Assembly: GCA_015146655.1 (NCBI GenBank)
Contig: VKHL01000030.1
Location: forward strand, 170,415 to 234,414
Direction of reading: 5' to 3'
Origin: Ochromonas danica
Taxonomy: Eukaryota > Sar > Chrysophyceae > Chromulinales > Chromulinaceae
DNA: 64,000 nt
Part shown: positions 14,181-35,754 of the stretch, piece after piece
Layout of the letters: each line of letters opens with the position of its first letter
How positions within the stretch are numbered: the stretch's first letter is position 1
Made by a program: the position numbers and the translations under genes
The notes under the pieces: generated by a model
The model's input: only the letters and a program-made list of their open reading frames with translations
What the model was told of the DNA's origin: nothing
Database searches by the model: none

Positions 14181-16142
14181 ATGTCCACTGTTGAAGGAGC
14201 TTCTGTTGGTATTGATTTGGGTACCACCTACTCTTGTGTTGGTGTGTGGCAGAATGATCGTGTGGAGATTATTGCCAACGATCAGGGTAACCGTACCACC
14301 CCTTCTTATGTTGCTTTCAACGACACTGAGCGTCTCATTGGTGATGCCGCCAAGAACCAAGTTGCCATGAACGCTTCTAACACCGTCTTCGATGCCAAGC
14401 GTCTCATTGGTCGTCGCTTCAATGACACTGCCGTCCAGTCTGATATGAAGCACTGGCCTTTCAAGGTCATTGATGGTCCTGCTGGCAAGCCTCTCATCCA
14501 AGTCCAGTACAAGGGTGAGACCAAGCAGTTCGCTGCTGAGGAAATCTCTTCCATGGTCTTGATCAAGATGAAGGAGATTGCTGAGGCCTACCTTGGCCGT
14601 GAGGTGAAGAACGCTGTCATCACTGTCCCTGCCTACTTCAACGACTCTCAGCGCCAGGCTACCAAGGATGCTGGTGTCATTGCTGGCCTCAACGTGCTTC
14701 GTATCATCAACGAGCCCACTGCTGCTGCCATTGCCTACGGTCTTGACAAGAAAGGTGCTGAGAAGAACGTTCTCATCTTCGATCTTGGAGGTGGAACCTT
14801 CGATGTGTCCCTCCTCACTATCGAGGAAGGTATTTTCGAAGTGAAGGCCACTGCTGGTGATACTCACTTGGGTGGTGAGGATTTCGATAACCGCATGGTC
14901 GACCACTTCACTCAAGAGTTCAAGCGCAAGTTCAAGAAGGACATCTCTGACAACCAGCGTGCTCTTCGTCGTCTCCGCACTGCCTGCGAACGCGCGAAGA
15001 GAACCCTCTCCGCTTCTACCCAGGCTCATATTGAGATCGACTCCTTGTATGAGGGCATTGACTTCAACTCCGTTATTACTCGTGCCCGCTTCGAGGACTT
15101 GAACATGGACTACTTCCGCAAGTGCATGGAGCCTGTTGAGAAGGTTCTCAAGGACTCTAAGCTATCCAAGTCTCAGGTTCATGAGGTTGTCTTGGTCGGT
15201 GGTTCTACTCGTATCCCCAAGGTTCAGGAACTTCTTTCTGAGTTCTTCAACGGAAAGGAGTTGAACAAGTCCATCAACCCTGATGAAGCCGTTGCCTACG
15301 GTGCTACTGTCCAGGCTGCTATCCTCTCTGGCTCCGACAAGTCTGAGAAGCTTCAGGACCTCCTGCTTCTCGATGTCACTCCTCTTTCTTTGGGTATCGA
15401 GACTGCCGGTGGTGTGATGACCACCCTCATCAAGCGCAACACCACCGTGCCTGCTAAGAAGTCCCAGACCTTCTCCACCTACGCTGACAACCAGCCTGGT
15501 GTGCTCATTCAGGTCTTCGAAGGTGAGCGTGCCATGACCAAGGACAACAACTTGCTTGGCAAGTTCCAGCTTGAGGGTATTCCTCCTATGCCTCGCGGTG
15601 TTCCTCAAATCGATGTCACTTTCGATATCGATGCTAACGGTATCTTGAACGTTTCTGCCATGGAGAAGTCCACCGGCAAGGAGCAGAAGATTACTATCAA
15701 GAACGACAAGGGTCGCATGTCTGCCGATGAGATCGAGCGTCTTGTCCAAGAGGCTGAGAGATACAAGGCTGAGGATGAGGCTAACCGTGCTCGCATTGAG
15801 TCTAAGAACGGTCTTGAGAACTACGTCTTCCAGATCAAGAGCAGCATCAACGATGAGAAGCTTGCTGATAAGATCCCTGAGGCTGAGAAGAAGAAGGTTT
15901 TGGATGCTATTAACGAGACTACCCGATGGCTCGACAGCAACCAGCATGCTGAGAAGGAGGAGTATGAGGAGAAGCAGAAGCACTTGGAGTCTATTGTTCT
16001 TCCTGTTTTGCAGAATCTTTCTGGTGGTGCTGCCCCTGGTGGCTTCCCTGGAGCCGCTCCTGGCGGTTTCCCTGGTGGAGCTACTTCCTCTGGTCCTGCT
16101 GAGGCTGCCGATGAGGGACCTAAGATCGAGGAGATCGATTAA
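14181..16142 (+). CDS. HSP70: cytosolic HSP70 chaperone
   Basis: Intronless, 653 aa, ATG at 14181. All HSP70 signatures are present: [13 protein letters not shown] near residue 10, [14 protein letters not shown] near 195, and [13 protein letters not shown] near 335. The [19 protein letters not shown] linker leads to the substrate-binding domain, then the helical lid. The tail contains [14 protein letters not shown], marking the cytosolic/nuclear class, and ends EEID instead of the usual EEVD that docks TPR co-chaperones. There is no signal peptide or ER-retention tail. Length and motifs are normal. Codons are strongly C-ending, consistent with high expression. The upstream heat-shock elements indicate HSF control; it may be constitutive and inducible. 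Confidence 0.98.
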
Positions 16143-16741
16143 ATTCTTATCCCTACTCTCTCTTCGTGTAGTCAATAGTTGTGATTTTTTATGGTAGTTG
16201 TCAAAAAGATGGCCATGCCCAACTACTACTGTTGAAGTAGGCATCCCCCTGTCAAAATAATTTACTTTAACAAGTTGAAAATAATAATTGAAATTTTGAC
16301 CATACTTTTCTTTTTTTTTATTGTCCGCTTAGATTGTACTTTCTGACATCGCCTGAACCAAAAGCGGTTAATGCTCTCTTGCCCTGCAAGGGAACCCGGG
16401 TCAACCAGGACATAAGGTTTACTCTTTTTGAGGGGGCCAGGAACGCCACATCATACCAGACGCTAACATTCCATTCGGTGTGCAATTTGCATGTTGGTGA
16501 TGTCACTGAGAAAGAAGATATGCAGTTGCAACGGAACTGTGTGGCTGTGTCGGAACTATTAACTACTCTCTCTCTCTACTGTTGTCGAACTGTGCTTGAG
16601 GTCTGCGCGAAGCCAAGCAAGCCTTCCACCTTGATTAGTCCTAAGATCTCCTCTCCTCTAACGTTGAGATACCGTCTCTCTTCGTTTTTTTTTTATCTAT
16701 GAGATATGCTCAATCATAGTGGAAGAGAGCGATTTTAGGAA
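16143..16741. other. intergenic spacer between HSP70 and histidine kinase 1
   Basis: Contains the HSP70 3' UTR, a T-rich run near 16310-16320 and another at 16685-16693. No convincing gene; an open stretch at 16334-16702 lacks an ATG start and any recognisable domain. Confidence 0.6.
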
Positions 16742-19700
16742 ATGATAGTACCAGTAACTTGGTGGTTCAATCAGAAATGTTATTCTGTTTGTTCCCGTTA
16801 TGAACCATTTCGAACTGTTGTAAAAGTTCTTGACTCCTATATATATAAATATGCCTTTCTCTCAGGCTTTCTGATCATTTCAATATATTCAATTCTATGC
16901 TTCATGCCACTGTTGACTCCACACAGTGCTATTGACCGATTTGGCTTCGACCTTGAACCATGGAGAAACTTTCAATATGCAGTTAGTGATGAGTCCTATT
17001 CGAAATGGCTTTTGGTTAGCATCTTTGTAGCTATTCCATTAGGCCTGGAGTTAGTACTGGATTATCCTAAAATCTTTGAAAGTTATGAAGAACGAGAAAA
17101 TTGGCTTGCCACACTCTTGCTCATCTTAACTTTTGTTGTCCCGAATTCCATCCTGTACTGTCTTATTTATTATTGCCCTGCAGTTCTGATTAAAAATGAA
17201 GTCCTTCTGACCAGATTTGCTTTTGTACGTATTCAACAACAATTCTACACATTCGCCATGCTCGCCATGATGTTTGGGCGGCGGATTGAATATGCACGGA
17301 ATACGAAATATACATTTCTTAACTTCTCTGTTGAGAAGAGGACCGTGACGGTTCTTAGCTTGTTCATGTTTGGGAAAGCTTTTGACCTGCTTGGAGATGC
17401 CTTTAATAAATCCCTCTCTCGTGTTGGTTATGTGGTCAATACGTTAGCAGTGGTCGCTCTGTTGCTGCTGTTGATTCGAATGCTCTATATGCAAGTATAT
17501 CAATACGTAAAGCGAGGAAAGTTTCCAACACATTATCATCTATCGGACTGTATGCTATGCTCAACGAACATCCTATTCGTGGTCTTTAGCTTTATTGTTC
17601 AGGCATACGCCACTGCTAACCCACCTCACCATGAGGAACAAGCTAAAGCTATTGTCAAATGTGAGATATTTCTTCAAATTGGACTTGCCTGCTTTATTCA
17701 AATCATATCTGGAAGGAAGAATAAGTTATTGGCGGAGATCAAACACGAGAAGTTAGAGACGAGACTGAATCTCATTCGTTATGTATCTCATGAAATGAGG
17801 ACTCCTTTAAACACCGCCTTCATGGGTTTGACGCTAGTCACTAATGATCTGAAGGTTTGGAGAAGGAAGGTTCGCTCAGAAGAACATCGCGAGCAAGATC
17901 TACAAGCCATGAGGGAGATTATGGCGTCAATGTCGGATGCAGCTTCTCCTCGCAGCGTTAATGGTGGCAGAGATCAACCACCATCTCCATTACATAGATC
18001 TTTGCTTGTACGCTCGTTTAAGACATCAGCTGTTGGATTGTCAAATGATGTTCAGCATACTGAACCAACATCCACAGATCCAGTGGTTTCGTTAGCGCGA
18101 ACTGAAAGCCCGTATAGAAGCATTGACTTGAATCAACCTTGGGATAAACCTATGCATGATGATAGCAAGTCTGATGCAGATGATAGGAAAAAAGGAAGTG
18201 AAACCAATATTTCGGGCATGCTTACTCCTTCTACTCAAATTGACAGTCGTGCAATAAGTGAAGCTTTGGATACATTGACTCAAGTCAATGATTCTTGTCA
18301 AGTTGCCCTATCCACACTGGATGACTTGTTGACCTTCGATAAGATTGATGAGCAAAAGCTGGTGGTGGAAATGCAGGATATCAGTCCTTGGTCGTTCGTT
18401 TGTGCCGCAGCCAAACCTTTCTCTATCAATGCAAAGCAAACCCACGTTCATTTCGCGGTGAAGCTGCATGATCGAGAATCAGGTTGGGCGAGGCGGCATA
18501 TGATTCGTGGGGATCCATTCAAGCTGAGCCAAGTCCTGCGGAATTTGATCTCCAATGCCTTGAAGTTCACTCCTGCAGAGGGCAATGTGGAAGTGAGAGT
18601 ACAAAGAGATCCTGATTTCAACAATAAAGACATAGTTCGCATCAGTGTGACGGATACGGGGGCAGGCATTTCTCCTCAGAACCAGAAGAAGCTGTTTGGT
18701 CAGTACGTGCAGTTCAATGCCGGTGCTCTGCAGCAAGGCAAAGGGTCAGGACTAGGTTTATGGATCAGCAAAAGTAAGTGTGCATGTTTTAGGTGTTTCT
18801 TATTGATTAGAGATGTTATTCTGATGGGCTTGCTTTTGTTTGGGTTGTTCGAATGTGTATATTCAGGCATAGTGGAGATGCATGAAGGCCAGATCGGTGT
18901 GATTTCTGAAGGAGAAGGCTGTGGCAGTATGTTCTATGTTGATTTGCCTTTGTTCAGGCGGTCGATTGTTACTTCTACTGGCGATCCCGCTTCTCATTCT
19001 TCTCGAGGAAGGTCTTTCGGAAGTTCTGCGAGCATCCGTAATTTGTACGAAAGACCTCCATCTGATGAAGCTGGTGTAGTTTCTGCGTCCTCTGCTGCTG
19101 TTTCTGCCGCAGCTCCAGCTTCATGGGACAGTGAGCTCAATCCGACTATACCTGCGATGTCACTCTCTGTTCGTAAGGCTGCGGACAACATCATTCTCGA
19201 CACTGACCAGTCAGTTCCTAGTAATCGTGTCATCAAACAAAAGAAGATGCGGAAGAGCTTTCTTAATTCCTCATGGGAGTGGCGAATAGGAAAGTCGCAG
19301 CTTGAGCCCGAATTCCCGGTTGACAATATTAACAATGAGGCGCATGCTCATTCAACAGTGTGGGATAGGGTTTGGACACTTCTTGGTTATCGATACTGGT
19401 GGGGTGCACCCGCTGATCATTGTAGAATGGTACAGGATGATGCCAATTCCTTGGTGTCTGATCTTAACACTGTACCTGGAGTTGGTGGCGATGATGGTTC
19501 ATCCAATAACTCTCTTTCCAAGACGAAGCGTGCGGAAAGTAGGATCTTCCTCGACTATCCTGTGCGTCTCTGGATCAACAAGCGTTGTAACAATGCCAAT
19601 CTAGGTGCTGCAAACTCTCAGAGTTCTCTTCTTCCTGATCAGATCATTGAAGGATATGAAAGACAACTCGTTGTTGATGATCAGGATAATGCCGTCGTGA

Positions 19701-21127
19701 AAACAGAAAGTGACGAGATGAGGCTTCGGAATGAATACTATGATCCTACCGAGCACGCTGTGTTTGATTACTCTGATAGCTACCTCAGCATGATTCCAGA
19801 GGAATTAGACTATTCTATGAAAGTTGTGAATATGGATGATCAAGATTCTTTGGTGAGATTAAATTCTCCCTCGCTGGAAGAAGTACCATTTGAGACAAAA
19901 CCCAATCCTCGTGTATTGCGCAAGAATTCGTCTACCTTCTCATTGCTGAAAGGGCGAACATCAAATGCCCACACAATTCGTCAAGATAGTAGTGGGCGTG
20001 TGCAACCAAGTGCTCTTCGGCCGGATAGCCAAACCAGTTCAGAAAGCGATTTCCGCGTCTTCTCGTCTATTTCTCCCTCAAAGCTTCTCAACCCTCCACT
20101 AAGACCGATGAGTGGGACACTAGATGATTATGGACTTCAGGTGGCCCCATCACAGTCTGTTTCATCGGTTGAAGAAATAGAGAGAGGAGAACATGTTAAC
20201 TCGACTGCTGCTGTACCTTTGCGATTACGACATGACTCTTGTGATAGCCTTCAATCGGATGACAGCAATGTGGCAGTCCGATATAACTCACCGAAGTATT
20301 CAACACAGCAGATCCAAAGCAGCAATAATGCTTCGAATCATAAGATCAATAGTCCGCCAAATTTGACTATCAACACCAATTCATCGTTCAGTTCTCTCCC
20401 TGCACAGCTTCAAACTCCGCTTTCCAGACAATTCACCGCGCCACTCTTGCCAGCACAAAGCGATAGAACTATACGATTGCATGAACATCCGGCATTAAAC
20501 AGAGAGGCATTTAACCGTCATGATAGCGAGGTTAGGAATAGATGGCAACAAGGTCTGAAGATCTTGTTGGTGGATGATGTCTTATCCAATCGCAAGCTCT
20601 GCTCTAAACTGTTGACCTCTCACGGTCATGTTGTACTGGATGCTCATGATGGCCAGCATGGCTTGGAGGTTTGGCAGGAGCATCAAAGATTGTATGGGAG
20701 TATGAGTGGCAGCAGTGATAATAATGCGAATTGTGGTGATGCTGCGTCTATCAATACTCCTCCATATCATCTGCCTTCATCTAATATTGCAACACAACCT
20801 CGAGAACAAGAGCAAGTGCAGGTTCAGCGATCTGGTCGACATGGACAATTCACGACCTCTTCCTTCAACAGCAATGGCAATGGCAGTGCCGCTTTGACGG
20901 ATCGTCCCTTCGACTTGATATTATTGGATGATAACATGCCTCGTCTATCAGGCTTTCAGACTGCACAAGCCCTGCGCAAGCTGGGCTATAAAGGGTTGAT
21001 AATTGGAGTGACAGGAGATGTCCACGAGGAAGCAGTGCAGCGCTTTCTCTCTCATGGTGCAGACCATGTTTTATCCAAGCCATTGGATATCGAAAAGCTT
21101 CGCACCAACGTATTGCGGCTTTCTTAG
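16742..21127 (+). CDS. hybrid histidine kinase, paralog 1 (multi-pass membrane sensor)
   Basis: Two exons, 16742-18773 and 18867-21127 (1430 aa). The 93-nt GT-AG intron is stop-free; its removal restores GLWISKSIVEMHEGQIG. The N-terminal 320 residues carry about seven hydrophobic segments, then a helix into the H-box SHEMRTPLN (His near residue 350). The second half of the dimerisation domain (DTLTQVNDSCQVALSTLDDL) comes only after a polar insert of about 125 residues. The ATPase domain has the N box (LRNLISNALKF), DTGAGIS and GKGSGLGLWISKS. A disordered 500-residue linker leads to a receiver domain, LKILLVDD to LSKPLDIEKL. This has phosphoacceptor Asp in LLDDNMP, Thr in GVTGD and Lys in SKPLD, but carries a ~60-residue Ser/Gln-rich insert. 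It signals by His-to-Asp phosphorelay; ligand unknown. Confidence 0.9.
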   Translation: MIVPVTWWFNQKCYSVCSRYEPFRTVVKVLDSYIYKYAFLSGFLIISIYSILCFMPLLTPHSAIDRFGFDLEPWRNFQYAVSDESYSKWLLVSIFVAIPLGLELVLDYPKIFESYEERENWLATLLLILTFVVPNSILYCLIYYCPAVLIKNEVLLTRFAFVRIQQQFYTFAMLAMMFGRRIEYARNTKYTFLNFSVEKRTVTVLSLFMFGKAFDLLGDAFNKSLSRVGYVVNTLAVVALLLLLIRMLYMQVYQYVKRGKFPTHYHLSDCMLCSTNILFVVFSFIVQAYATANPPHHEEQAKAIVKCEIFLQIGLACFIQIISGRKNKLLAEIKHEKLETRLNLIRYVSHEMRTPLNTAFMGLTLVTNDLKVWRRKVRSEEHREQDLQAMREIMASMSDAASPRSVNGGRDQPPSPLHRSLLVRSFKTSAVGLSNDVQHTEPTSTDPVVSLARTESPYRSIDLNQPWDKPMHDDSKSDADDRKKGSETNISGMLTPSTQIDSRAISEALDTLTQVNDSCQVALSTLDDLLTFDKIDEQKLVVEMQDISPWSFVCAAAKPFSINAKQTHVHFAVKLHDRESGWARRHMIRGDPFKLSQVLRNLISNALKFTPAEGNVEVRVQRDPDFNNKDIVRISVTDTGAGISPQNQKKLFGQYVQFNAGALQQGKGSGLGLWISKSKCACFRCFLLIRDVILMGLLLFGLFECVYSGIVEMHEGQIGVISEGEGCGSMFYVDLPLFRRSIVTSTGDPASHSSRGRSFGSSASIRNLYERPPSDEAGVVSASSAAVSAAAPASWDSELNPTIPAMSLSVRKAADNIILDTDQSVPSNRVIKQKKMRKSFLNSSWEWRIGKSQLEPEFPVDNINNEAHAHSTVWDRVWTLLGYRYWWGAPADHCRMVQDDANSLVSDLNTVPGVGGDDGSSNNSLSKTKRAESRIFLDYPVRLWINKRCNNANLGAANSQSSLLPDQIIEGYERQLVVDDQDNAVVKTESDEMRLRNEYYDPTEHAVFDYSDSYLSMIPEELDYSMKVVNMDDQDSLVRLNSPSLEEVPFETKPNPRVLRKNSSTFSLLKGRTSNAHTIRQDSSGRVQPSALRPDSQTSSESDFRVFSSISPSKLLNPPLRPMSGTLDDYGLQVAPSQSVSSVEEIERGEHVNSTAAVPLRLRHDSCDSLQSDDSNVAVRYNSPKYSTQQIQSSNNASNHKINSPPNLTINTNSSFSSLPAQLQTPLSRQFTAPLLPAQSDRTIRLHEHPALNREAFNRHDSEVRNRWQQGLKILLVDDVLSNRKLCSKLLTSHGHVVLDAHDGQHGLEVWQEHQRLYGSMSGSSDNNANCGDAASINTPPYHLPSSNIATQPREQEQVQVQRSGRHGQFTTSSFNSNGNGSAALTDRPFDLILLDDNMPRLSGFQTAQALRKLGYKGLIIGVTGDVHEEAVQRFLSHGADHVLSKPLDIEKLRTNVLRLS
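18350..18901 (+). repeat. 552-bp tract identical to 37372-37923 (kinase paralogs)
   Basis: Read side by side, the two copies match base for base from just after the variable GATTGAT/C codon to the variable codon after GGCCAGATCGGTGTG. The tract covers the ATPase-domain exon and the whole 93-bp intron. The flanks diverge quickly, a sign of gene conversion. Confidence 0.85.
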
Positions 21128-22226
21128 AACCGTTTATTTAGCATATTAAGTGGTAATCGTCCATACTATTGTTGTATCTTCCGTGAGTGTGATATGTTTT
21201 CTTTCTTTTTCTTAATGCATGATTGTTGCATACCTTGTATATATTTTGAATAAACTGGTTATCAAGGGTCGAACGAGCGATATGGTATGTGTTTGCTTTA
21301 AATACGACCAAGAGTGTCATTGCAACTTAATTTAGGTAGGAATTTTAACCTTGTTGATCAATTAATCAATCAATGAATAGTTTCGCTTTGGAGGATAATT
21401 CCTTCCAGTGCCCAGAATTGAATATTCACTTTGTATAATGTACATTACATCGTGCCATAATAATTATGAGGTGGTAGCATATATGCTACTCTGTTATGCA
21501 GCCGCTAATGAATGTATGATATATAGTTTGATGAAATGAATATGGTGATACGTGTTGACGTGTAATAGTACGAGTTTGTTGCGATACGAGAACTTTTGGG
21601 AGTGATTAGTTGTTAGGCGGTGGTTGCTTGCTTAGCCTTTCTCTTGTAATTATTTTATTTTCTGATCGGACTATGCTATTACTTGTTTGAATACTTTTCT
21701 ATTAGTCTAGCTCAACTACTACTTGTACATTTCCATCAAATCTATTCTTATTGTTGGCCAGAAAAGAAGAATTGACCAACATAGCTGTGCAAAGGCAAAA
21801 CACTAATGAATACAAGACACAACTTCTCTAATGCACTTCTAGAGGAGGCCAAAACACCCTTCCAAGACAAAACTCACGTCTGGGGGAACAAACACACAGT
21901 GGGGGTTTTGGTCCTCACTGCTGGACTTGGTCGGATTGTGGATTTCCTACGAGTTTAACTCACCGAAGTCACCAAATTTGGAATTATCTGACTTGCGATC
22001 TGCTGAATATCTCTTTGTGCGACCTCTTTGGAATTAATTAGATGTTGCCCATTTTTGATGATTTGAAGTGAGTCTACCAAATCCGGAAATGAATGCAGTT
22101 CTGTTATTGCGCGGGAGTTATACTACTATTAACTTAACAAGAACTGGCTGGATTGGAAACTGACTGGTTTGGTTGCAGAAGAAGGATTTGATTTGGTGAA
22201 CCTTTGTTCTTGTCATTTCTATTGGA
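21128..22226. other. 1.1-kb intergenic spacer
   Basis: AT-rich, with the kinase 3' UTR on the left and the 5' UTR/promoter of the small plastid-type gene on the right. I find no ORF with a recognisable domain, no tRNA and no repeat. Confidence 0.6.
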
Positions 22227-22823
22227 ATGAGTCATTCTTTTATTCTCTTCACCATTCTTTCTTTATTCTTCTATTTATTCTGTTTCACTACCACTACACT
22301 AGCCTTCAATCTCCCTCAGAGAAGATGTTATGGTATTGACGGAACTGCTTTGTTGGCAAGACGCAAACCTGTCCGATCCACAGCAGGCAAAGAAATTGCT
22401 GCACGAAGGAATAAGCAAACCTCTTTCATTGAAGATGAGATTCTAGCAGATATTGAGAGTCTTCGTAACAATAATAACAACCAATCACCTCTCTCTCTGT
22501 CCAGCAGCAGCACAATTGAAGACAACAACAACAACAACGACAAGACTACTGCTGCTACTGCCTGGTTGACACCTTTGAAGAATGCTTTGTCACTTATCTT
22601 AGTCGTTGATTTCTTTGTTATCATTGGCTTTCTGATCTGGTTTCTAGTAGGGATAGGTCTACAAAGTAGCTATCCGGTGGTGTTGCAAGTCTTCCAGAGT
22701 ATCTTCCAATCTGTTGTAGTGCCTGCTTTGACGGTGTTAATGGCAGGATCGATCATCTCAGGTCTTATGTCAAAGAAAGATGATGAAGATGATGACTCCT
22801 CCAAAAAGAGTCGCAGACAGTAG
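22227..22823 (+). CDS. small membrane protein with plastid-type bipartite presequence
   Basis: Intronless, 198 aa. A strong hydrophobic signal peptide (about residues 1-26) ends TTTTLAFNLPQRR, with predicted cleavage between Ala and Phe. Phe at +1 followed by a basic, hydroxylated stretch is the rule for secondary-plastid targeting in stramenopiles. The mature part has an Asn/Ser-rich segment, then two hydrophobic helices (LSLILVVDFFVIIGFLIWFLVGIGL is the first, written here only by its ends LSLILV...VGIGL in spirit; the second is near VVPALTVLMAGSIISG). It closes with an acidic-basic tail, KKDDEDDDSSKKSRRQ. Function not recognised. The 3' two thirds of the gene plus flank are duplicated at 26300-26971. 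Confidence 0.75.
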   Translation: MSHSFILFTILSLFFYLFCFTTTTLAFNLPQRRCYGIDGTALLARRKPVRSTAGKEIAARRNKQTSFIEDEILADIESLRNNNNNQSPLSLSSSSTIEDNNNNNDKTTAATAWLTPLKNALSLILVVDFFVIIGFLIWFLVGIGLQSSYPVVLQVFQSIFQSVVVPALTVLMAGSIISGLMSKKDDEDDDSSKKSRRQ

Positions 22824-23016
22824 ACTAGTGACAATAGAGATGTAAGGTGTAAATACGATGAGGGTGAGGATGAAGATTTTGAATCAAAACATACAAAGTA
22901 GATTGATTGACTTCTTCCTCCTACAACAATAAAACGAATACAATAGAGAGTACAGGGAAAAATAGAACAACAACTACTTGGCCTTTCTTATCCTTTGAGG
23001 ACTTGAATGGTAAGTC
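22344..23016 (+). repeat. left copy of a ~0.67-kb direct repeat
   Basis: 673 bp nearly identical to 26300-26971; I see three substitutions near the left end and one 1-nt indel. It covers the mature part and 3' UTR of the small membrane protein and ends with a truncated copy of the last ~30 bp of the DysF gene's coding region. Confidence 0.9.
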
Positions 23017-23319
23017 TTGATTGAGTTGGTAATCAATACAACTATCCACCAACTAGACATTACTAAGAATAAGATATCTTTTATTTTAGCTAAGATGTAT
23101 GGTCACAGCTTTCCATGCGAAAAACACCTCCTTTCCACATTGCACTAAAGGTCCAAACGTTAGGAATCTGGGAATCTGGAGCCTTCTTGTTTGCTCGCTT
23201 CAACACCCTGCTGTCTTCTCTCTGCGCCCTGTCTGCAACATGAATCCAAGAAGTCTGTCCAGACTACATTAAAGCTTGTCTATTACTATTACTATTACTA
23301 TTGTCCAGATTCTAAAGTC

Positions 23320-25275
23320 ATGTCTTTCGTTAAACAGTACTGTGACCCAGTAAAGAACAAAAATCTCTGGGATAGCTCTCGAGGGGTTTGTGATATTGTT
23401 AGTGCCGATGGCTATTATCTATATGGTACTGGATATCGCTTTGGTAGCTCCTATATCAAAACTTGTGCTCATGTTCTCGATAGTTTTGATAAAGCGAATT
23501 CAGCTAACTTCTTATTTCCCTCTGATAATCCACAAAGTAATGATAGTATTGTTATCTCAAAAGACGATGACGAGAGAACCAGAAGATTTTATGCACAATC
23601 TCGACCAGAAAATGGATGTAACTATGGTATGATTGATTCTGTTATGGTGGATATTCAAGAGTATCCAAATCCTAATGATATTCTGAACAGTTTTCGTGGA
23701 GATTATATGAAACATTTAGAAGAATTGTTAAGAGAAGTTTGTAATTCAGATCAAAGGAATTATCAGAATTATAGTCAATATTTTCAATATTTCATGAAGG
23801 AAGCGAATCAAATCAACTCCATTACCATCGGCAACATTCCACAATTAGTGAGTGATCTAGAACGTAATCATCCTCCAGATAAATGTACTAGAATCGAGAT
23901 ATTCAAAGACATTATGAAGTGCCGAGTTGACGGATATAGCCGTTTGCATACGTATTCCCCTACGATGAAGCCAATCCCTAAGCAATTACCTGGAATAGAT
24001 TTGATTCAGTTCCAGTCTCTCACCATAGATCCATCTGGAGATTGTATTGTCTTACTAAGCGAAGGTACGTTCGTGAATTGCTTGTATGAACAAGTTACCA
24101 ATGAATTGTTACGAAATGTATATGCTATTGTGCAAAATGAACCAACTCAACAATTGCTCAGATATCTTCATGATAAAGGATTGCTATTTTCATTGAAACC
24201 TTCTCTCAACGATCAACATGATAATACCACTCCATTCACATTCTTGCCTGGTTGCAGTGGATCACCTGTTGTAATACCTACTGAGAAGGTGTCTTTGATT
24301 GGTACCTTGTTTTGGTCTGATGACCGTTGTACTCCGTTGTTTGTTCGCTATGATAAGAGCTTGCATGATCATTTTCACAATGCAGTCCTTGAAACATTTG
24401 TGCCGATTAGCTTCTCAGGCAATAATAGTCTGATTTATTCTATTGGCATCAATGAATCAAGAACAAATGGTTATCACATGATGGTGGAAAGTATTCAATC
24501 CCAAGTGAGGGGATTGATTCGATATGATGATGACAATGATGCTCTGATGGCTTTAATGTGCAGTCATCCTATTTTTGAAGGTTATTCACCTCTGTTTCCA
24601 GTTGATCCAGACCATTTGGTATCTAGTGGTAGCTGTTTTTACATGTACCGCTGGAAGAATGAAGACCAAGTTGCTGCAATTTTGCGCTTTCGCAGATGTC
24701 GTAATGCATCTGATAAAAATAACCTCCATGAAATAGCCTCTAAGCTTGCTGAGGTTCATAGAGGCATAGATGGTGTGGAGAATTGCTTTAGAGATACTTC
24801 ATATTGGTTAGGACGCTTGCAGAAATTGGTGAAGCATAGGCTTGTCAGCGTGCATTTTCATTTTCGTTATCCTTTTTTCATGAGAGTTCGAGCCGATACT
24901 GGCGTAAAGCAACCTACATTTAATAACGCCAATTTTACGTCTGAAATGCAAGGCTTCCGTGGCATGAAGGCAATCAATTCATGGAGCCTTCGCCACAATT
25001 ACTTGCCGGAGGGAAATGGCGGAACATCTACCGGCAGACGACCATTGCGAAAGCATGGCGACGAAGAAGAACGCAGCAATCTTCAGATCTATGAATGTGA
25101 TGCCGAAAAATATTGGGGATATTATGGCCAATCAATGGCAACAGGTATTCTTATTCTAGCCAAAGACTCTATCTTGAGTACTTGTCTGAAATGTATGCTC
25201 GATAAATTTGATACTTTGTGTGATAACTCTGTTGGCGATAAATTTCGGAAGATTAAAGATATTCCTATCTACTAA
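23320..25275 (+). CDS. trypsin-like serine peptidase-domain protein, novel C-terminus
   Basis: Intronless, 651 aa from the ATG of MSFVKQYCDPVKNK; an upstream ATG at about 23239 opens an 11-codon out-of-frame uORF. GSSYIKTCAHVLDSF (residues ~45-60) matches the S1/trypsin-like His region. FLPGCSGSPVVIP (near residue 310) matches the GxSGSP serine motif, and the following LIGTLFW fits the strand after it. An Asp candidate is in the YGMIDSVMVDI segment. Between His and Ser lies an unusually long helical insert rich in Asn/Gln. The C-terminal 300 residues, Cys- and Tyr-containing, match nothing I know. No signal peptide is visible. It sits in a block flanked by direct repeats, with a second, diverged 5' fragment of the same family at 26027-26299, so it belongs to a local multicopy family. 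Confidence 0.72.
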   Translation: MSFVKQYCDPVKNKNLWDSSRGVCDIVSADGYYLYGTGYRFGSSYIKTCAHVLDSFDKANSANFLFPSDNPQSNDSIVISKDDDERTRRFYAQSRPENGCNYGMIDSVMVDIQEYPNPNDILNSFRGDYMKHLEELLREVCNSDQRNYQNYSQYFQYFMKEANQINSITIGNIPQLVSDLERNHPPDKCTRIEIFKDIMKCRVDGYSRLHTYSPTMKPIPKQLPGIDLIQFQSLTIDPSGDCIVLLSEGTFVNCLYEQVTNELLRNVYAIVQNEPTQQLLRYLHDKGLLFSLKPSLNDQHDNTTPFTFLPGCSGSPVVIPTEKVSLIGTLFWSDDRCTPLFVRYDKSLHDHFHNAVLETFVPISFSGNNSLIYSIGINESRTNGYHMMVESIQSQVRGLIRYDDDNDALMALMCSHPIFEGYSPLFPVDPDHLVSSGSCFYMYRWKNEDQVAAILRFRRCRNASDKNNLHEIASKLAEVHRGIDGVENCFRDTSYWLGRLQKLVKHRLVSVHFHFRYPFFMRVRADTGVKQPTFNNANFTSEMQGFRGMKAINSWSLRHNYLPEGNGGTSTGRRPLRKHGDEEERSNLQIYECDAEKYWGYYGQSMATGILILAKDSILSTCLKCMLDKFDTLCDNSVGDKFRKIKDIPIY

Positions 25276-25974
25276 CACGCAGAGAACTCCAATTTATTCT
25301 CACCCTTACCATGTTTGCGGTTTTGTTGAAGTCCCTAAATGGGCCATAAAAGGATCAGATAGGATTGTGGGCCAATTTGTGGAGGATATCTGATAATTGG
25401 CTGCGCAAAATGGCCAAAAAATGAACAAAAGGAAATAAAAAATTAAAGTAAAACTAACATATATAAATAAATATAAGAAATACGATATTATCTTAAAATT
25501 ATTAGCCATATATTACCTATCCTCGATCTTAACAAAATAAGATAAGATAGATTTAATTACTCTTTGGAATAGTTTGCCATATCACCATATACCACTATGA
25601 ACATAACATACATATTTCATTTACTTTCGCTATTGCTGGCTGCTATTAGTACCCCAAATAACTGTATAGTCTATAGATCCGCCAACTCCAGGACTATTTC
25701 CAGATGATCTTCACCAGATGTGATGAATCACCACCCTTACCAAAGCTGATGTGGGATATTGTTCCAACAATAGCTAAGTACAACTCCCACGCGTTGGTTT
25801 ACTACAAGAGGAACAACTTCCCGCTTCTATCATAACTAGCTGGACTTGAAATTTTTACCTGCCCATGCAACCACATGTTAACTCATTACCCCAAATATAT
25901 GAACTTTACCAGGAATCTGGAGCCTATCTTGCCACCTACAACATCTCGCACCTTTGACTATTGACTATTGACAT
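25276..25974. other. AT-rich intergenic spacer after the peptidase gene
   Basis: No gene recognised. Its right end (from about 25910) begins to resemble the peptidase gene's own upstream region, sharing AGGAATCTGGAGCCT and GAAGAAGTCTGTC, and so marks the start of the second peptidase copy. Confidence 0.55.
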
Positions 25975-26026
25975 CAATTGAAGAAGTCTGTCTGCATTGA
26001 AGCTTGCACATTACTATTGTGCAAAC

Positions 26027-26779
26027 GTGTCTTTCATTAAACAGCGCTGTGACCCAGAAAAGAACAAAAATCTCAGGGATAGCTCTCGAGGGGTTTGTGA
26101 TATTGTTAGTGCCGATGGCTATTATCTATATGGTACTGGATATCACTTTGGTAGCTCCTATATCAAAACTTGTGCTCATGTTCTCGATAGCTTTGATAAA
26201 GCGAATTCAGCTAACTTCTTATTTCCTTCTGATATTATTATCTCAAGAGACAACAATTTGAACAATAATGACACGAAAATGAAAACCAGAAGATTTTATA
26301 CTGCTTTGTTGGCAAGACGCAAACCTGTGCGATCCACAACAGGCAAAGAAATTGCTACACGAAGGAATAAGCAAACCTCTTTCATTGAAGATGAGATTCT
26401 AGCAGATATTGAGAGTCTTCGTAACAATAATAACAACCAATCACCTCTCTCTCTGTCCAGCAGCAGCACAATTGAAGACAACAACAACAACAACGACAAG
26501 ACTACTGCTGCTACTGCCTGGTTGACACCTTTGAAGAATGCTTTGTCACTTATCTTAGTCGTTGATTTCTTTGTTATCATTGGCTTTCTGATCTGGTTTC
26601 TAGTAGGGATAGGTCTACAAAGTAGCTATCCGGTGGTGTTGCAAGTCTTCCAGAGTATCTTCCAATCTGTTGTAGTGCCTGCTTTGACGGTGTTAATGGC
26701 AGGATCGATCATCTCAGGTCTTATGTCAAAGAAAGATGATGAAGATGATGACTCCTCCAAAAAGAGTCGCAGACAGTAG
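26027..26779 (+). pseudogene. chimera: peptidase 5' fragment fused in frame to small membrane protein
   Basis: The frame starts where the peptidase ATG should be, but that codon is GTG here. It then follows the peptidase for about 90 residues (CDPEKNKNL, GYHFGSSYIKTCAHVLDSF), with small indels near the end. At 26299/26300 it switches in frame (RRFY then TALLARRKPVRS) to the small plastid-type membrane protein, read to its normal stop. It lacks the signal peptide of the parent, the peptidase serine and any ATG before 26279. Translation from that ATG would give 166 residues without targeting. The peptidase part has diverged much more than the membrane-protein part, so they have different ages. 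Best read as a non-functional by-product of a rearrangement, though the open frame across the junction is striking. Confidence 0.8.
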
Positions 26780-26971
26780 ACTAGTGACAATAGAGATGTA
26801 AGGTGTAAATACGATGAGGGTGAGGATGAAGATTTTGAATCAAAACATACAAAGTAGATTGATTGACTTCTTCCTCCTACAACAATAAAACGAATACAAT
26901 AGAGAGTACAGGGAAAATAGAACAACAACTACTTGGCCTTTCTTATCCTTTGAGGACTTGAATGGTAAGTC
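26300..26971 (+). repeat. right copy of the ~0.67-kb direct repeat
   Basis: 672 bp matching 22344-23016. On its right the sequence continues without a break into the intact 3' exon of the DysF gene, so this junction looks ancestral and the left copy carries the cut-off tail. Confidence 0.9.
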
Positions 26972-29900
26972 GTAATTGAGGTAATTTGCAATCTGGTCGT
27001 GGTCCACGATTGGCTCCAAATGCCCCAGCAGCAAGAGAATCAAGATAGCCTACTCCACCTTTGGTATTCAATGCATTTCGTTTCGGTGATTGTTGCAAAG
27101 ACTGCAAATCAACACCTGGATTCTCTCCTCGTTCGTATTTCTTGGCTGTGGATTTGTACGCATTAGATGGTTGAACAATATACCAAGCAGTATGAGCACA
27201 TAATGTACGCGCTGCTTCGCAATCCAAAAGTGGATCATCTGTCTCTATCCCATCTCCTCCTCCATGGGTAGCAAAAGAATGTCCTTTGAAAGATAGCTTC
27301 TGGGACATTTCAGAGAAACTTGCAGTTGGTGGATCAGAAAGAGATGGAGACAAGACGACCTCAGAGGTCTGAGAAGAGCGAATGATATCACCCAAGTTAA
27401 TGACAACTGTGCCAATTAGTTGTTGTCGGAAGACCTTCAATGGACGAATTTGGAAACCATACAGCTCAATACGTAACTCTTTCAACTGATTCATCTAAAT
27501 CACAACAATAGCAATTAGGACATTGTCATCATTTATTCATCATTCTGATCATTCATAATATTCATACCTGCATATTATCCCATTTCACGATATCATTCCA
27601 TGACATTAGAGTATTTGAGTTTGCTTGAAGTGGTAATTCATACACTTCCTTGTTAACTATGACTTTCTACTCATCAATCAGCAGCATTGAGATCGAACAG
27701 GAGTTTGTTAGTTGTTGAGTGCTATTATGTAAATACAAGTAACCAGAGAATGCTGTCTTACCAAGAAGATGCTGCGGTACTTGACCACTTGAACACATGC
27801 CAAACCACTAATCCGTAGAGAACAACGCGGTCCAAATGCTTCGCTATCACTCTCTCGAGGGATGCAATTAGGATCCACTGCATCGCTATTCCAACAGTCT
27901 TCACTGTCCATGTTGTTCAGAAGAGGAGAAAAGTGTGTGAAGGCATTGTCTGTGGAGAAGAAGGTCTCTAATGAGTTGTAATAACTATCCGAATCAGTCA
28001 CAGCTAGAGTAAGCAATCGTTCTGGAGGCTAACAGGAAACACAGTAACGCATTAGTTAAATTGATCGCATAGACTAAATGTCATGTCATGTCATAATCTC
28101 ACCTGAATACCAAAGCTACCAACCAGAAAGCGATTCAACGATGCTGTTCCTACCCAATCATTCGTTAAAGCAGACATAATGAAGAATGATAACTTCTTGA
28201 TTAATAAGATACAACCCCTTTCAAAACGACGAGAGATATCTGATAGATCATCTCCATTATCTTCTTCTTGTCCTTCTTGTCGTCGTGTTGATTTCTTTTC
28301 TGATGGATTTTTACTATCTGACCAAAGTTGACCTTCTCTTTTACTTGATCTTCTCTTGGAAGATGATGGTGATTTATTATTGTTATTGTTGTTGTCATCG
28401 TCATCATTATCATCACCTTCCTCACGTGAAGGAGAAGAAAAAATACGATGACGAGTTTCCGTAAATAAAGTTTTAAGTTGGCGCATATCCTTTTCCCAGA
28501 TTTCCATCATTAACAAGTCATGTTCATGAACTGCTTGAACAGTCTCACTACCAACATTTTTGATATTAGCATGAGAGGAAGTACTTTTACGACCAAAAGA
28601 AAAGCTCAATCGTCTACTTGATCTGTCCTCTTTCGTTGAAGAAGAAGACAAACTACTACGATGACTTTTCGAATTCATTCCACCTGTTACAACACGTGCT
28701 CGATAATCATGATAATCTCGTAAGAAGAGTAGATAACGTATAATAATTTTAAGAAGACAAAGATATACTAAAGCACATAGTTCTTCCATCATAATATGAT
28801 GACTTGCAAAGACTAAGAAATCTAAGAAAGTTGCTTTAATTAATTCTAATGGACTATGTTGTTGACTATTATCCAATGTCACACTTCCTGTTGTAATGTC
28901 ATGATAATATCGGAAAATATGACCATAGTCATCAAAACCATTTAAAAAATAATATCGTAATTCTGTAAAGAAAAAGAGTTGATTGGAAAGTTCATTGAGA
29001 GCTTTGTATGTCACTGTATTGACAACTTTTCTTGACAAATTGAAAGAAAGATTGCCTTTATTACTATTACCTGTTGTGGCATTAGTACGTAGAGGATGAT
29101 TCCCTCCACTATCTGATAGACGAGAACTACCACCAGCAGAGGAACAACTTGATCGTCTGGTCACACCACCACCAATACTACCTGTAAAGGATCTTCTTCC
29201 TAGATAGGCTACATTACGTTTATGAATATATCCTTTTCCACCATAATGATTATTACTACTACCAAAGCGAAATAAGGCAGCATTATGACTGTTGGCTGTA
29301 TTTTGATAAATTGTTTGAAAATCTGCTACAAATAAGTCAATGGTCTGAGGAATATGTGTTGTATTGATACGATAACAATCATTTACAACAGAGAATAAGA
29401 AGGAAATGACTTCATCATGTAGACTATCATTAGCTGTCTTCTCATTTTGATTTAATGTTGTAAATGTGCTAGATCCTCTTCTATTATCACCACCACCAAC
29501 ATTTTGACCAAATCGTAACAGTTTATTACTACCACTACTAGTCTGACCGGGTTTACCACTCCCTGCAGTAGCTAAGCTACTATAAAGACTATTAGTAGGT
29601 TGTCGTTTTAAGACAAGTGGTAATAGATAGGTTGCTACATTCTGAATGAATCGATTTAAAACATTTTCATATTCTGCTGCAAGAGCAATATAAGATAAGA
29701 TTAAACTATTCATAATCTTTCCATTCATTGCTTCAATCCGTTGAAAGGATTCCATACTTCGATTAATTCGACTATTATTTGCCATAGTAATCAGATCTAT
29801 ACCTCCTGCTACACCATTGGAAGAGATTGTATTACTATCATTATTACCATCTTTTGATTGTAAAGGTGTAATCTTTTTCAAACCAATTTCAACATTTAAT

Positions 29901-32900
29901 TGTAATTGAATGGTCTCAGGAATATGTGAGATATACATCTCACGTCCACATTGTTTATCTTGAATTGTTGTAATCTCCCATGGCAATTGTAAACCTTCTG
30001 AGGAGAATGTTGTTACAGTAGTAGATGCAGAAGAGGATGAAGAAGGACTAAATGGTTGTTTACTACCATCTAATTGATATTCCATGAAGTGCTTTAATGT
30101 ACGAGTATTCCACATTAACAAACTAGCATCCAAAATACTACTAAAGGTATCCAACAAGTCCTGGAAGTTAATCGATAATGACAATAATGGTCTTTTATTA
30201 AACTTGTAATTATGTGAGCGTAGGATATAATTACAATAACTTTCAAAGATTTCATCATGTGTAATAACAAATTTAATCAAATCTCTTTTCTTTTGTGGAT
30301 TTTTATTAATTGTTTGTTGGTTTTGTTGCTTGTCTGTGTGTTTACCAGAAGATGTTGTAAGTCGTTGATCTGATGGTGGTAATGGACCTGTTGTTGTAGT
30401 AGCATTGGATAATCCATCTCCTACATCAATAGTATCTAATAACATCGCTACAATCTCCTTATACTTGGTAAAGATGGTTCGAGTCAGTTCAGTAGAGACA
30501 TCCATATAGTTATGATGTAGAGCACGATAAATGATATGACGTACTTCTTGTTCTAATCGTCGCATATGATCTCCAATACGATAAAGCAAGGCATCAATCT
30601 CTGTACTATAGTTAGTGGTATTAATCGGCTGGTTCGCATAAGAGATAATACGTGGAGGTTGTCGCCCACTAGCGACTAATTCTGGTTGATGATAACTATA
30701 ACTTGTGGACAAACTCCTTTCATCGAATAATATCCAATTTGTATCCAGATAATGCTTCTCAGCACTATAACTTGCAGGGGCTTGTTGTAATAAATACCAA
30801 AGATAAATACGGAACGTAGCAAGACGTAAATACAGTTGTTTGATGGTTGGATTACGACTGGTCAATGAAGTCAATACATAGTCTAGACAACATGGATCAA
30901 TCTCATGACTTGAATGGCGCAGATGTAAATCTTCCATGTCTTTACTAATCTCCCTCATTACTCTCGCTGCTGACGATAATGGAGAATTAGCTAATGCACC
31001 ATCATTTTCACCACTACTGGGTGGAGTTTCACTCGCTAATAATCGTTGTTCTTCATTACGCTCCTCAATAAAGTTCATACTCTCATAGATGCTTGTTTCT
31101 AATGCCTTGGCTAGCTTATGGAAGGATTCTTCTTGTTCTTTACCATTTGATAGCAAATGAGCTTGTAATGCTTGTCTCATTTCCTGTACACTAATATGAT
31201 TACAAATGCTAGCATACATATCCTCCGCAAGACAAGGTCCAAGAAGAAGTTGGATTTCTACCTGACGAACAACTCCTTTGTTGGATGAAGAAGACATTGC
31301 ACGATGTAAAGTAAGTTGAAGTAAAACTGTGTGCTCACAGAGAATATGTAACGCACTACTTTGTAGTTGTGTATAAGGAATAAGTAACTTCAGACATGGG
31401 GAGGTAGCATTGGAGATTCGTTCTTGACATTCCTCTAACATAACAATACGATCACTATGTCCTTGATTGGCAGTTTTATCAAAGCTAATTTGTAGACCAC
31501 TTTGTAATATTGAAAGATAGAAGATATCCATCTCTAATCTCTTCTCATTGGCATTAAGAATTTGTGCAGGCCAGGCACAATCTCCAGGTTGTAGTGGTCG
31601 ACTACTCATTGCAAGTTTTACAAGATTCCCTTTATTTCGTAATGCTTGAGACCTTGCAGAGCCTGGAGTCGAAGGATTGGAATAACTTTCACCATTATTT
31701 TGTAATGTTTTGTTTAGCATTAGACGCAGAGTTCCTAAAGTGAAGAGGTGCTTTGACGAGGCTGCCAGTGTGACTGCTAGTGCAGTATTACGAGAATTGG
31801 CTGGGATAGTGGAATGATTTGAAGAGCGAATGATATAGCAGTTAGTCGCAGTTGCAGGTGGAGTATCGCTGTGATGATGACTTGACCCACCCTCTTCATC
31901 ATCAGAATCCTCCTCACAGGATCGAATGGGTAAGTCAGATTCAGTCGATGCAGTACAAGTGGGTATCAAGACTTCACCTAAGCATATGTCTTGACCATCT
32001 TCATTGTCAATTCCCCACACTTCAATGAGAAGATAATGTGCAGTTTCCAACACGGGGTAGGTAGCTGCATCAATTACAATTGTTCCTTCACGACCAAAGT
32101 TATAACCATCTTCAGCAGAGATAACTGCAGTGCGATGAATATATCCAGATCTTAAAGAAGCATTCTTTGATGATGAAAACACTCCTCCACTTCCTCCTGT
32201 CACAGCAACTCCTGTGGTAGAGTGAGATGCTGTAATTGAAGATTGGCTTTTCTTCTTACCACTTCCACCAAAACTTAAAATGGATTTCCTACTACTGCTA
32301 TGGTTACTTCCAGAATGGTTACTAACTGGAGAATTGACGGGCTCATTCCATACTAAAACATGTCCTTCTCTGTCGGCAAGGAAGAATAACAAATAAATGT
32401 CCCAACCATAAGCTTTAATCTTTTCTTCTGTCCATGCTAACTCCAAGGAGTTGACATGGAGTTCCAAGATAGGTCGCTCCAATACTATCTGTAACTCTTG
32501 CTCATTTGACAAGGCCGAGCTATTACCAATTCCAGGAAGAGCTGCCTGACCGAGGCGCACAACATCAGCCCCCATAGAAATTGACAAACCATTGGATTGA
32601 CCGTCTTTGTCCTTTTCTCTCCAGCTTTGGCTATGAGTCGAAGACGCGGGGCTGTTTGGAGCAAAACGACCACTGTCCCGCTTCGCACCCAGTCCACTGA
32701 GTTGAACGCTATTGGTTTTGTAAGCAGTCGCAGGTCTTGCTGAAAGGGACAAGAAAACAAAGTGTCGGTTAGCAGACTGTGCTTGTAAATGAGAGGCAGA
32801 TGAGCCGTAGGATGGAACGCGACGAAATTTGATGGAATCTTCACTATCAGCAAATCCATGCTCTTCTGGTGAGTGAGATGTCCAATAAGGAAGCAATATA

Positions 32901-35097
32901 CGGACTGTGGTGTTCTTAATTTCACCAGTCGCGGGCTCAGGAATTCCTCCACCATTAATACCATCATGTCGAATAGAAAAATTAGTTTCATAATGTTGCC
33001 CATCAACTGTATCGATACAAATACAAGCTTCATGTTCATAAACAGGTGCATTAGCCAGCTGGAAAGAGGTGACCGAAAGAAGTTTGACTTCCAGTAGATG
33101 TGACATTGTCAAACTATGCGCATGACTGATTTCAACTGCTTCCAGAAGTTCAAATGGTATACGAACTGGAAATAGATGAACATCCTCAGAAGGTAGTTCA
33201 GTAATATCTTCCAAGGAAATGTGTATACATTCCTCTTGAAAGTCAAGCGTAAGAAGACCTTTCTCAAAGGATCTTCCTTCCATTGAGAGTAACATACCTT
33301 CAAGTTCGATGACTTCATCAGCATAGTTATTTAAATCATATTTAATGGCAGAAAGATAACGTAATAGCTTGTAGTAGTCATAGATATTATTCCAGAATAT
33401 TCCATAGGTTGAAGAAGATCCTTCCTCATCGATCTCACTGGATTCTTTACGCACAAAAAGATAAACACGATATGTATAACTTATTAAACCACGTGCTTCT
33501 CTGTGCCATTCTTCGTGGTAACACTTCATTACCGTCGAAGTACATACAGGCTGTCGACGGAACCAAGTCTGTGTTCGACTATATGTATCCGCAATACGAT
33601 TCATGAGTTCATCTCCTAGACTAGAGAGGTCTTGTTCACCAAAGAAATGTCCAAAAGGGATCCATTTGGTGAAGAGAGGCATATAATAAGGATAATGAAG
33701 GTAGAAGATAGGTTGGTGTGCAGATTCTGCATCTCTTAAATAGGAAATCACCTTGTTAAGATCACTGTTCGTACTCTTAATTGTACTTTGAATCTGATTG
33801 ATATCTTGAAGAATATTAATTAGATCGAAATCACTGATATAATCCTGTCCTTCTGTACGCAATGAAGTGATATCTTTTAACAAACCATTGCAATTACTTT
33901 CCAGACTCAAAGACAACATAATAATCTGCTCTTTTAAGCGATGAGAAATTTTATTTTCCATCATAACAACTTGATTTAATTGGCCATCTGCAAAGCATTC
34001 TTCTGTGTTCACCACATTAAAGATTGTGTGTTCATTTATGCGGAATTCCACGAAAACGGAGAATTGCTTTTCTTTCAATAAAATAGTAGAAAAATAAGGA
34101 GTTGCGGAACTTTGCAGCTGTTCTGAGTTGACAGTATTAAGCTGGTCAACAATGTCTCCAACAGTGAAGGAACTGACAATCGGAGCGTTGTGACTTGACT
34201 GACTGCGCAAGAGACTGATTCCCACTTTCTTTTGCCGCGCGATATGCGATAGAGGCAAAATAAAGTCCTTTGCCCATAGTGGAGGGCCCAATGCTCCAGT
34301 TTCTCTGACTATACCATCACTGATAAACTCTACATAGTAGGAGATATTCGTATTCAGAGAACTTGACGGAACATTGGATGAAATGGTCATGTGTGCCACC
34401 AGCTCATATGGTAGCAATCGACCCACAGACTGCAAGTCTACCACCATACTGCGGCGTAGTTTTTGCCTTCTAACCCAGCTCTATTCACACATATATAGAA
34501 CAAGGGATGAGATCATTGCAGATGCAGCAGGTAAAGGTGACAGTTACCATCTTTCCAGGACTAGCAGTCGTCGAACGACGATTATTGCGAAGTCTTCTCC
34601 AAGTTGTAGCATATTGAAAACTGTCATTGAAATCAAGAACAGGTCATCAGATTGGCGAGTGAGTGCAAAGGACGGGAAATTGCACACGGAAAGCAGCAAA
34701 CACTCACCCGCTTTCGTCAGTGACGCCATCCACCTTTACTACAGTCCAATCATCTTCCCATTTAAACCCATTTAGAGGTTCAATATCTTCCAGTGTACCG
34801 CTATTATCATTAAAACAGACTCAGCATCACCAAAGCCACACTTTCCAGAAGAAAGATCTCTTACCTAACGTATCTGTCTCCCTTTTCATTTGTAAAAGGC
34901 TTTCGATCTACCCCAGGAATTATATGTACACCCACAATACCTCCCCACTCCTTGGCGATTTGTCGATATTTCTCATTCTTGAAGACCTCGATGATAATCT
35001 GATTACATGTTGATTCTTCCGGAATAACAAACCAATACAAGTTTTTAGCCTTAAGTTCTTCAACAAGATCAAATGGCAGATGTTCCCAATCGGCCAT
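26943..35097 (-). CDS. giant DysF-C2 membrane-traffic protein (2564 aa)
   Basis: Seven exons, complement: 35097-34865, 34800-34708, 34620-34548, 34480-28103, 28028-27762, 27666-27568, 27494-26943, all GT-AG and in frame. Exons 1-4 together spell a DysF (dysferlin/Pex30-type) domain in residues ~30-145: IIIEVFKNEKYR, then GFKWEDDWTVVKVD, DESGFQYATTW and SWVRRQKLRRS, i.e. the split N- and C-terminal DysF halves. A C2-like domain lies near residues 815-975 (HYLLIEVWGIDNEDGQDICL). A long helical region around 1400-2080 is reminiscent of MUN/tethering folds. A second C2 is near the C-terminus (KVIVNKEVYELPL to LKELRIELYGF), interrupted by two introns. Low-complexity Ser/Asn stretches separate the parts. 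Ferlin, Munc13 and peroxin proteins share these modules, so vesicle or peroxisome membrane work is plausible; the exact family is open. Confidence 0.8.
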
Positions 35098-35754
35098 GAA
35101 GAGGTTAGATTAGGGAGATATGGTTGCTGTGGCAGGATATCCAAAGACTGTTGGAGAAGGTGATGATGATGGAAGAGCCTCTTGGCTTGCTCTAGACCTC
35201 TCCCACGCAAAATAATAACAACAAACCAATTTCTCTCCTCGCGCGCAATCAACAACAATCGAAGCCATCGAACTGATCCATCCAAACACAATTTCAAGAA
35301 TTGATGCAGAAGAGATCCAAAATTATTATTCTCTTGTGGTCTAATTATTGGTATTTTGTTTTGGTAAGTTCGGACTATAAAAAAAATATAAAAATTGCTT
35401 GAAAAAAGAATTAGAATAGCTTCAATGGACAAAATTACTTATTCTATAGCTGAACATACAGATTAAAATGTTTTAACAATGGGCATACAATCCAGTGATT
35501 GCCACCTGCTGGACTAATGAGCTGTGTAAGAGTGACAGACAGTCTAGTCTAGAGACTTCACAGTTACCCCGCGCAATAAACCTCCCGATGGGATGGCGTT
35601 GGGGAAGTGGGAAGTTTCTCGGCTGCTCCTCTTCTCTTCCTGCTGCTGCCTGCTGCTCTCAACGAATCTCGCAGATTAAAAAAAATAATACACTGGAATA
35701 GCAATAAAAATATAGAAATAATTCTCAAGAAATCGATTATTGAGCAAAGAATCC
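35098..35754. promoter_or_regulatory. divergent spacer between DysF gene and kinase 2
   Basis: 657 bp holding both 5' regions. AT-rich, with A-tracts near 35379-35393 and 35678-35690. An in-frame TAA lies 15 bp upstream of the DysF ATG, which supports that start. No gene recognised. Confidence 0.5.

Follow-up and report, generated by a model that had tools for sequence, protein, structure and literature searches.

How did a gene that resembles a protease come to lie between two almost identical direct repeats of about 670 bp? The repair of broken DNA with capture of outside DNA is a known route of gene movement, and the block described here looks like such a scar. Read in this way, it would show in compact form how DNA repair moved a gene in a seemingly photosynthetic protist, with both junctions readable. 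The block lies in a window of 64,000 nucleotides (C30:170415-234414) of an assembly of 31.19 Mb in 337 contigs, which looks eukaryotic by its genes and introns. All positions below are those of the window.

Direct repeats and the genes that they duplicate

We first give the features that define the two flanks of the block; S denotes the gene on its left, R and R' the repeats and P the protease-like gene between them.

22227..22823, plus strand: S, an intact gene for a small membrane protein of 198 aa (ORF; N-terminal signal-like stretch by eye)
22344..23025, no strand: left direct repeat R, with the 3' part of S and the cut-off tail of a convergent gene (secure to 23016; the last 9 bp may be junction homology)
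22402..22961, no strand: exact 560-bp core in common with the right repeat (exact-match comparison)
26300..26980, no strand: right direct repeat R', which continues as the convergent gene's 3' exon, intact on this side (alignment)
26943..27494, minus strand: last coding exon of the convergent gene (ORF)

Alignment of 22344-23025 with 26300-26980 gave 6 differences in 682 columns (99.1% identity), which upholds the original prediction of almost identical repeats at 22344-23016 and 26300-26971; these shorter ends apply if the final nine columns are taken as junction homology. Five of them are substitutions (22373, 22383, 22401, 23017 and 23019), and the sixth, at 22958, is a homopolymer indel. 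The longest exact run, 560 bp, consists of 422 bp of coding and 138 bp of noncoding DNA. A DNA search of the whole assembly, with the best candidates scored, returned R and R' alone, with no third copy among the matches listed.

Each repeat contains the 3' part of S and the tail of the convergent gene. The left one is joined to the intact 5' end of S and is cut off within the last codons of the convergent gene, as had been predicted and as the S and exon ORFs confirm. The right one carries on into the last exon of the convergent gene, which is intact, and breaks off on the S side. Direct repeats of target sequence thus bracket the insert. An insertion with a long target duplication would leave this order, in which each repeat is intact on the side of its own neighbour, and from it we infer an insertion into a pair formed by S and the convergent gene. 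The predicted insertion into an ancestral gene pair with duplication of about 670 bp therefore agrees with the layout, but the near-identity of the repeats is no proof that the event was recent.

The name DysF, proposed earlier for the convergent gene, remained unconfirmed, as three exon-sized ORFs of this region gave 0 Pfam families at E ≤ 1. S had no family above the Pfam cut-off, and no relatives of it were confirmed in viral contigs. The ORFs 22227-22823 and 57621-58676 both open with a signal-like stretch that precedes LAFNLP or SAFLSS, an arrangement reminiscent of stramenopile plastid-targeting motifs.

The same layout might stem from an assembly error or from joined haplotypes, with alleles that carry and lack P set in tandem. 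The assembly holds two different plastid-type rbcL genes (L026, G000:C193; L027, G000:C289) with rbcS- and rps4-like neighbouring ORFs (named by eye); one of the two rbcL genes was compared with PDB. This suggests that the assembly mixes two algae from a mixed culture or holds a contaminant, so an assembly error keeps a slim chance. Against it, there is no N anywhere in the window, the exact repeats of 560 bp and of 552 bp (the latter in a kinase pair, see below) are spanned within one contig, and the flanks of the block are single copy in the assembly search, with no separate allele contig found.

The protease candidate and its truncated copy

The insert of about 3.28 kb contains the following features.

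23026..23319, plus strand: U1, the stretch of the insert that precedes P; its segment 23171-23290 and the segment 25912-26018 ahead of P' are ~66% alike
23320..25275, plus strand: P, an intact trypsin-like protease candidate of 651 codons (ORF, sub-threshold Trypsin_2)
25728..25883, plus strand: relic of a multi-copy element, namely its 3' end (within U2, between P and P'), also found at 12 other places of the assembly with 74-84% identity
25912..26299, plus strand: P', a second copy of P, truncated so that it covers the upstream region and the 5' end; its core, 26028-26234, is 96% identical to P
26279..26779, plus strand: chimeric ORF of 166 aa from an ATG at 26279, made up of the P' end and the S body without the latter's signal-like N-terminus

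P is a candidate trypsin-like protease. Its motifs GTGYRFGSSYIKTCAHVL and FLPGCSGSPVV resemble, by eye, the His and Ser regions of such proteases; the earlier label of peptidase draws on these and on sub-threshold Pfam matches to Trypsin_2, with scores of 14.6 and 15.9 bits (E 0.058 and 0.022) against a cut-off of 27.6. A single-sequence fold model had a mean pLDDT of 29.8, too low to assess a chymotrypsin-type fold. Matches in Pfam and NCBIfam were all below cut-off, and the best match among PDB sequences had an E-value of 0.67. No relatives were confirmed by tblastn in viral contigs or in bacterial and archaeal genomes, and a 43-base stretch of P had no exact match in viral contigs. The six Trypsin_2 matches in the assembly are all on other contigs and none of them is P. 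P is thus a protease-like gene with no relative in the collections searched (its own assembly, viral contigs, bacterial and archaeal genomes, and PDB), an absence that means little with the assembly and PDB as the eukaryotic sources. A foreign origin of P was not supported by composition: its codon score (0.104) and GC3 (0.33) are within the range of 13 ORFs of the window (-0.022 to 0.241 and 0.13 to 0.59, respectively). No tRNA was found in the window by a bacterial-code scan.

The original prediction had placed a peptidase gene between the repeats, and the intact P is indeed present. It had missed the truncated P' (~25912-26299), which is fused in frame to the right repeat. The core of P' differs from P at 8 of 207 positions, and the start codon ATG of P is replaced by GTG. 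Of the eight changed codons in this 69-codon core, two are synonymous, as expected of a decaying copy. P' reads in frame into the right repeat, and from the ATG at 26279 the frame stays open for 166 aa. It is improbable that the insertion made in this way a new gene, encoding P' and S body without the signal-like N-terminus and perhaps kept by selection and by gene conversion, in a local conversion hot spot that also homogenises a flanking kinase pair.

Since the insert starts ~300 bp upstream of P and stops at ~codon 92 of P', it has the appearance of a linear fragment from a tandem array of P. The same orientation of P and the partial P' fits such a fragment. What counts against it is that P matches only itself and P' in the assembly, with no donor of the insert found there, and that the insert DNA otherwise has matches elsewhere in the assembly at the element relic only. 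Several copies of this element end near GTTAACTTAACTAAG, and an ORF of one copy had no Pfam match at E ≤ 1.

An array could also have supplied a circle. Homologous integration by a single crossover, of a circle or of ectopic DNA already bearing the ~670 bp of S and tail beside P, would leave the two repeats with no target duplication. It is the preferred model for long genic repeats in the parts of an Arabidopsis study used here (PMC2869330), and the partial tandem pair of P and P' is a possible circle source. No third repeat copy and no other source of P occur among the assembly matches listed, and the two ends of the insert, ~300 bp upstream of P and at ~codon 92 of P', cannot be joined to give a single array unit. 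We therefore consider circle integration a poor candidate at this locus.

Further candidates were tried and rejected. Ordinary transposon insertion is at odds with the flanking repeats of ~670 bp, a length that had already been judged too great for it; Pfam found no transposase family in P, and there is no inverted-repeat pair of at least 40 bp in 15000-35000. Movement driven by the element was discarded because the relic at 25728-25883 is the 3' family end only and lies away from the block edges, and because of the lack of Pfam matches in the element ORF. For tandem duplication of a larger unit, the sequence upstream of S (21128-22343) had no blastn match (E ≤ 1) to U1, P, U2, R or the tail gene.

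Junctions, probable gene conversion and the age of the repeats

Short imperfect similarities were found at both ends of the insert.

23017..23025, no strand: junction J1, which agrees in register with the continuing target at 7 of 9 bases (P of at least 7/9 = 0.0017, random window pairs)
26288..26299, plus strand: junction J2, P' into S'; 11 of its 12 bases agree with 22320-22331 in S

The final six bases of J1 are exact (P = 0.0003, random pairs). For J2, 6 of 3978 random pairs scored at least 11/12 (~0.0015), the match being within 30 bp. Both similarities thus exceed those of random pairs, with word lengths (9 and 12 bases) that were picked after sequence inspection. In register, J2 has only 2 of 14 matches, and its counterpart in S stops 12 bp ahead of the left repeat start. 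Short homology at J1 and J2 may fit template switching somewhat better than staggered-break fill-in, but given the out-of-register J2 and the post hoc lengths it is suggestive only. Two points count against template switching: the offset of 12 bp on the S side would need a further small loss, and the microhomology at J1 is indistinguishable from the diverged end of a longer repeat.

Staggered-break repair or a captured array fragment had been proposed earlier. The array fragment gains from the presence of P' in the block. Simple staggered fill-in is possible, but it is not favoured over template switching, considering the homology at J1 and J2 and the overhang staggers at primate numt insertions, which reach only 11 nt in the part of that report cited here (PMC2567098).

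The differences between R and R' are unevenly placed: the first 58 columns contain 3, the last 68 another 3, and the 556 columns between them none. This clustering was significant in post hoc tests with all six differences (p = 0.0003), with the four that remain without the last nine columns (p = 0.0043) and with the three substitutions among these four (p = 0.0025). The 126 end columns differ at ~5% (6/126), near the level of P and P' (8/207). The exact core includes the 138 bp of noncoding DNA, so protein-level selection alone is not the explanation.

A second pattern of this kind surrounds the block. It is flanked by hybrid histidine kinase paralogs at 16742-21127 and 35740-39555, which have in common an exact tract of 552 bp (18350-18901 = 37372-37923) that includes a 93-bp intron. 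Outside this tract and other similar patches, fully aligned blocks of 100 columns are 34-63% identical. The tract occurred at the two kinase places only among the matches listed in the assembly search. This sequence pattern points to ectopic gene conversion, which makes conversion between the 670-bp repeats plausible as well. Local gene conversion at this locus is therefore likely.

These observations lend some weight to an older duplication of S and the tail, with an old P array, homogenised by gene conversion, so that the near-identity would not come from a recent insertion. The exact central 556 columns, the P/P'-like divergence of the repeat ends and the kinase paralogs all speak for it. 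Against it, the clustering was tested post hoc, junction homology can account for two of the three differences at the right end, and the repeats end sharply. The clustered differences could also stem from inaccurate repair synthesis near the joins. Moreover, the order R-P-P'-R' is no simple tandem duplication, and an insertion step is still needed. On balance we regard the older duplication as rather unlikely. With either local conversion or inaccurate repair at the joins, the 99% identity of R and R' gives no date for the insertion and does not show a recent event. In the presence of local gene conversion, near-identical repeats around an insert can be a misleading clock.

The best explanation, which we hold with moderate confidence, is a repair-associated insertion with a long target duplication, in which a ~3.28-kb piece of a P array would have been inserted, perhaps by template switching, with probable later conversion. 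In the ancestral state, S would have adjoined the convergent gene. During repair or replication, an end under extension would have departed from the target a little way into the convergent gene's last exon. It would have copied or joined ~3.28 kb of a peptidase tandem array: P, then intergenic DNA that includes the element relic, then some 92 codons from the start of P'. It would then have re-entered the target ~670 bp upstream, inside S, leaving these 670 bp duplicated as flanking direct repeats. For the joins, template switching at microhomeology of the MMBIR type is favoured over staggered-break fill-in, the two not being firmly separated. Thereafter the core of the two repeats probably stayed identical through gene conversion.

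Comparison with known gene insertions

The block may work like a product of MMBIR but is not counted as a proven one, since no donor copy was found in the assembly, which may be incomplete. Template switching at microhomeology in MMBIR likewise combines imperfect short homology at joins with copy-number gain, and microhomeology of 7-14 bp was found at 19 of 57 joins of one human locus in the portion of that work considered here (PMC6902434). Those cases are human disease rearrangements of another scale with known donors, whereas no donor was found in the assembly here. Patch-mediated break repair in rice, as summarised in part of PMC7407515 (Vaughn and Bennetzen 2014), involves nicks on both strands, breaks and end joining that yield duplications and filler DNA. 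The rice insertions measure 10-1000 bp (PMC7407515), in contrast to 3.3 kb with a whole gene here.

A bacterial parallel comes from Helicobacter, where the inserted genes are reportedly restriction-modification genes. An insertion with a long target duplication in this genus (Nobusato et al. 2000) is cited in the Arabidopsis study (PMC2869330, in part); it is a gene insertion of the kind seen here but, unlike ours, bacterial.

A close parallel is found in the transposed genes of Arabidopsis, where direct repeats of more than 30 bp flank 18 of 126 genes versus 2 of 102 controls, according to the sections of Woodhouse et al. 2010 (PMC2869330) used here. As may hold for our locus, single genes were moved there and stand between direct repeats. 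These repeats are mostly genic and not of transposon sequence, and the target site often contains them as well. The sources are often tandem duplicates, like the pair of P and P'. The repeats at the target site measure 30-287 bp in the parts of the table considered, with one 550-bp pair that belonged to a Pack-MULE, compared with ~670 bp here. The Arabidopsis target site was shown by an outgroup, whereas the insertion here is read from one assembly. The authors of that study regard circle integration, or tandem repeats that existed beforehand, as simpler explanations than target duplication. In the parts of the study cited, the insertion of genes between long direct repeats of their target is already documented for Arabidopsis, and the present locus is an example of this known kind.
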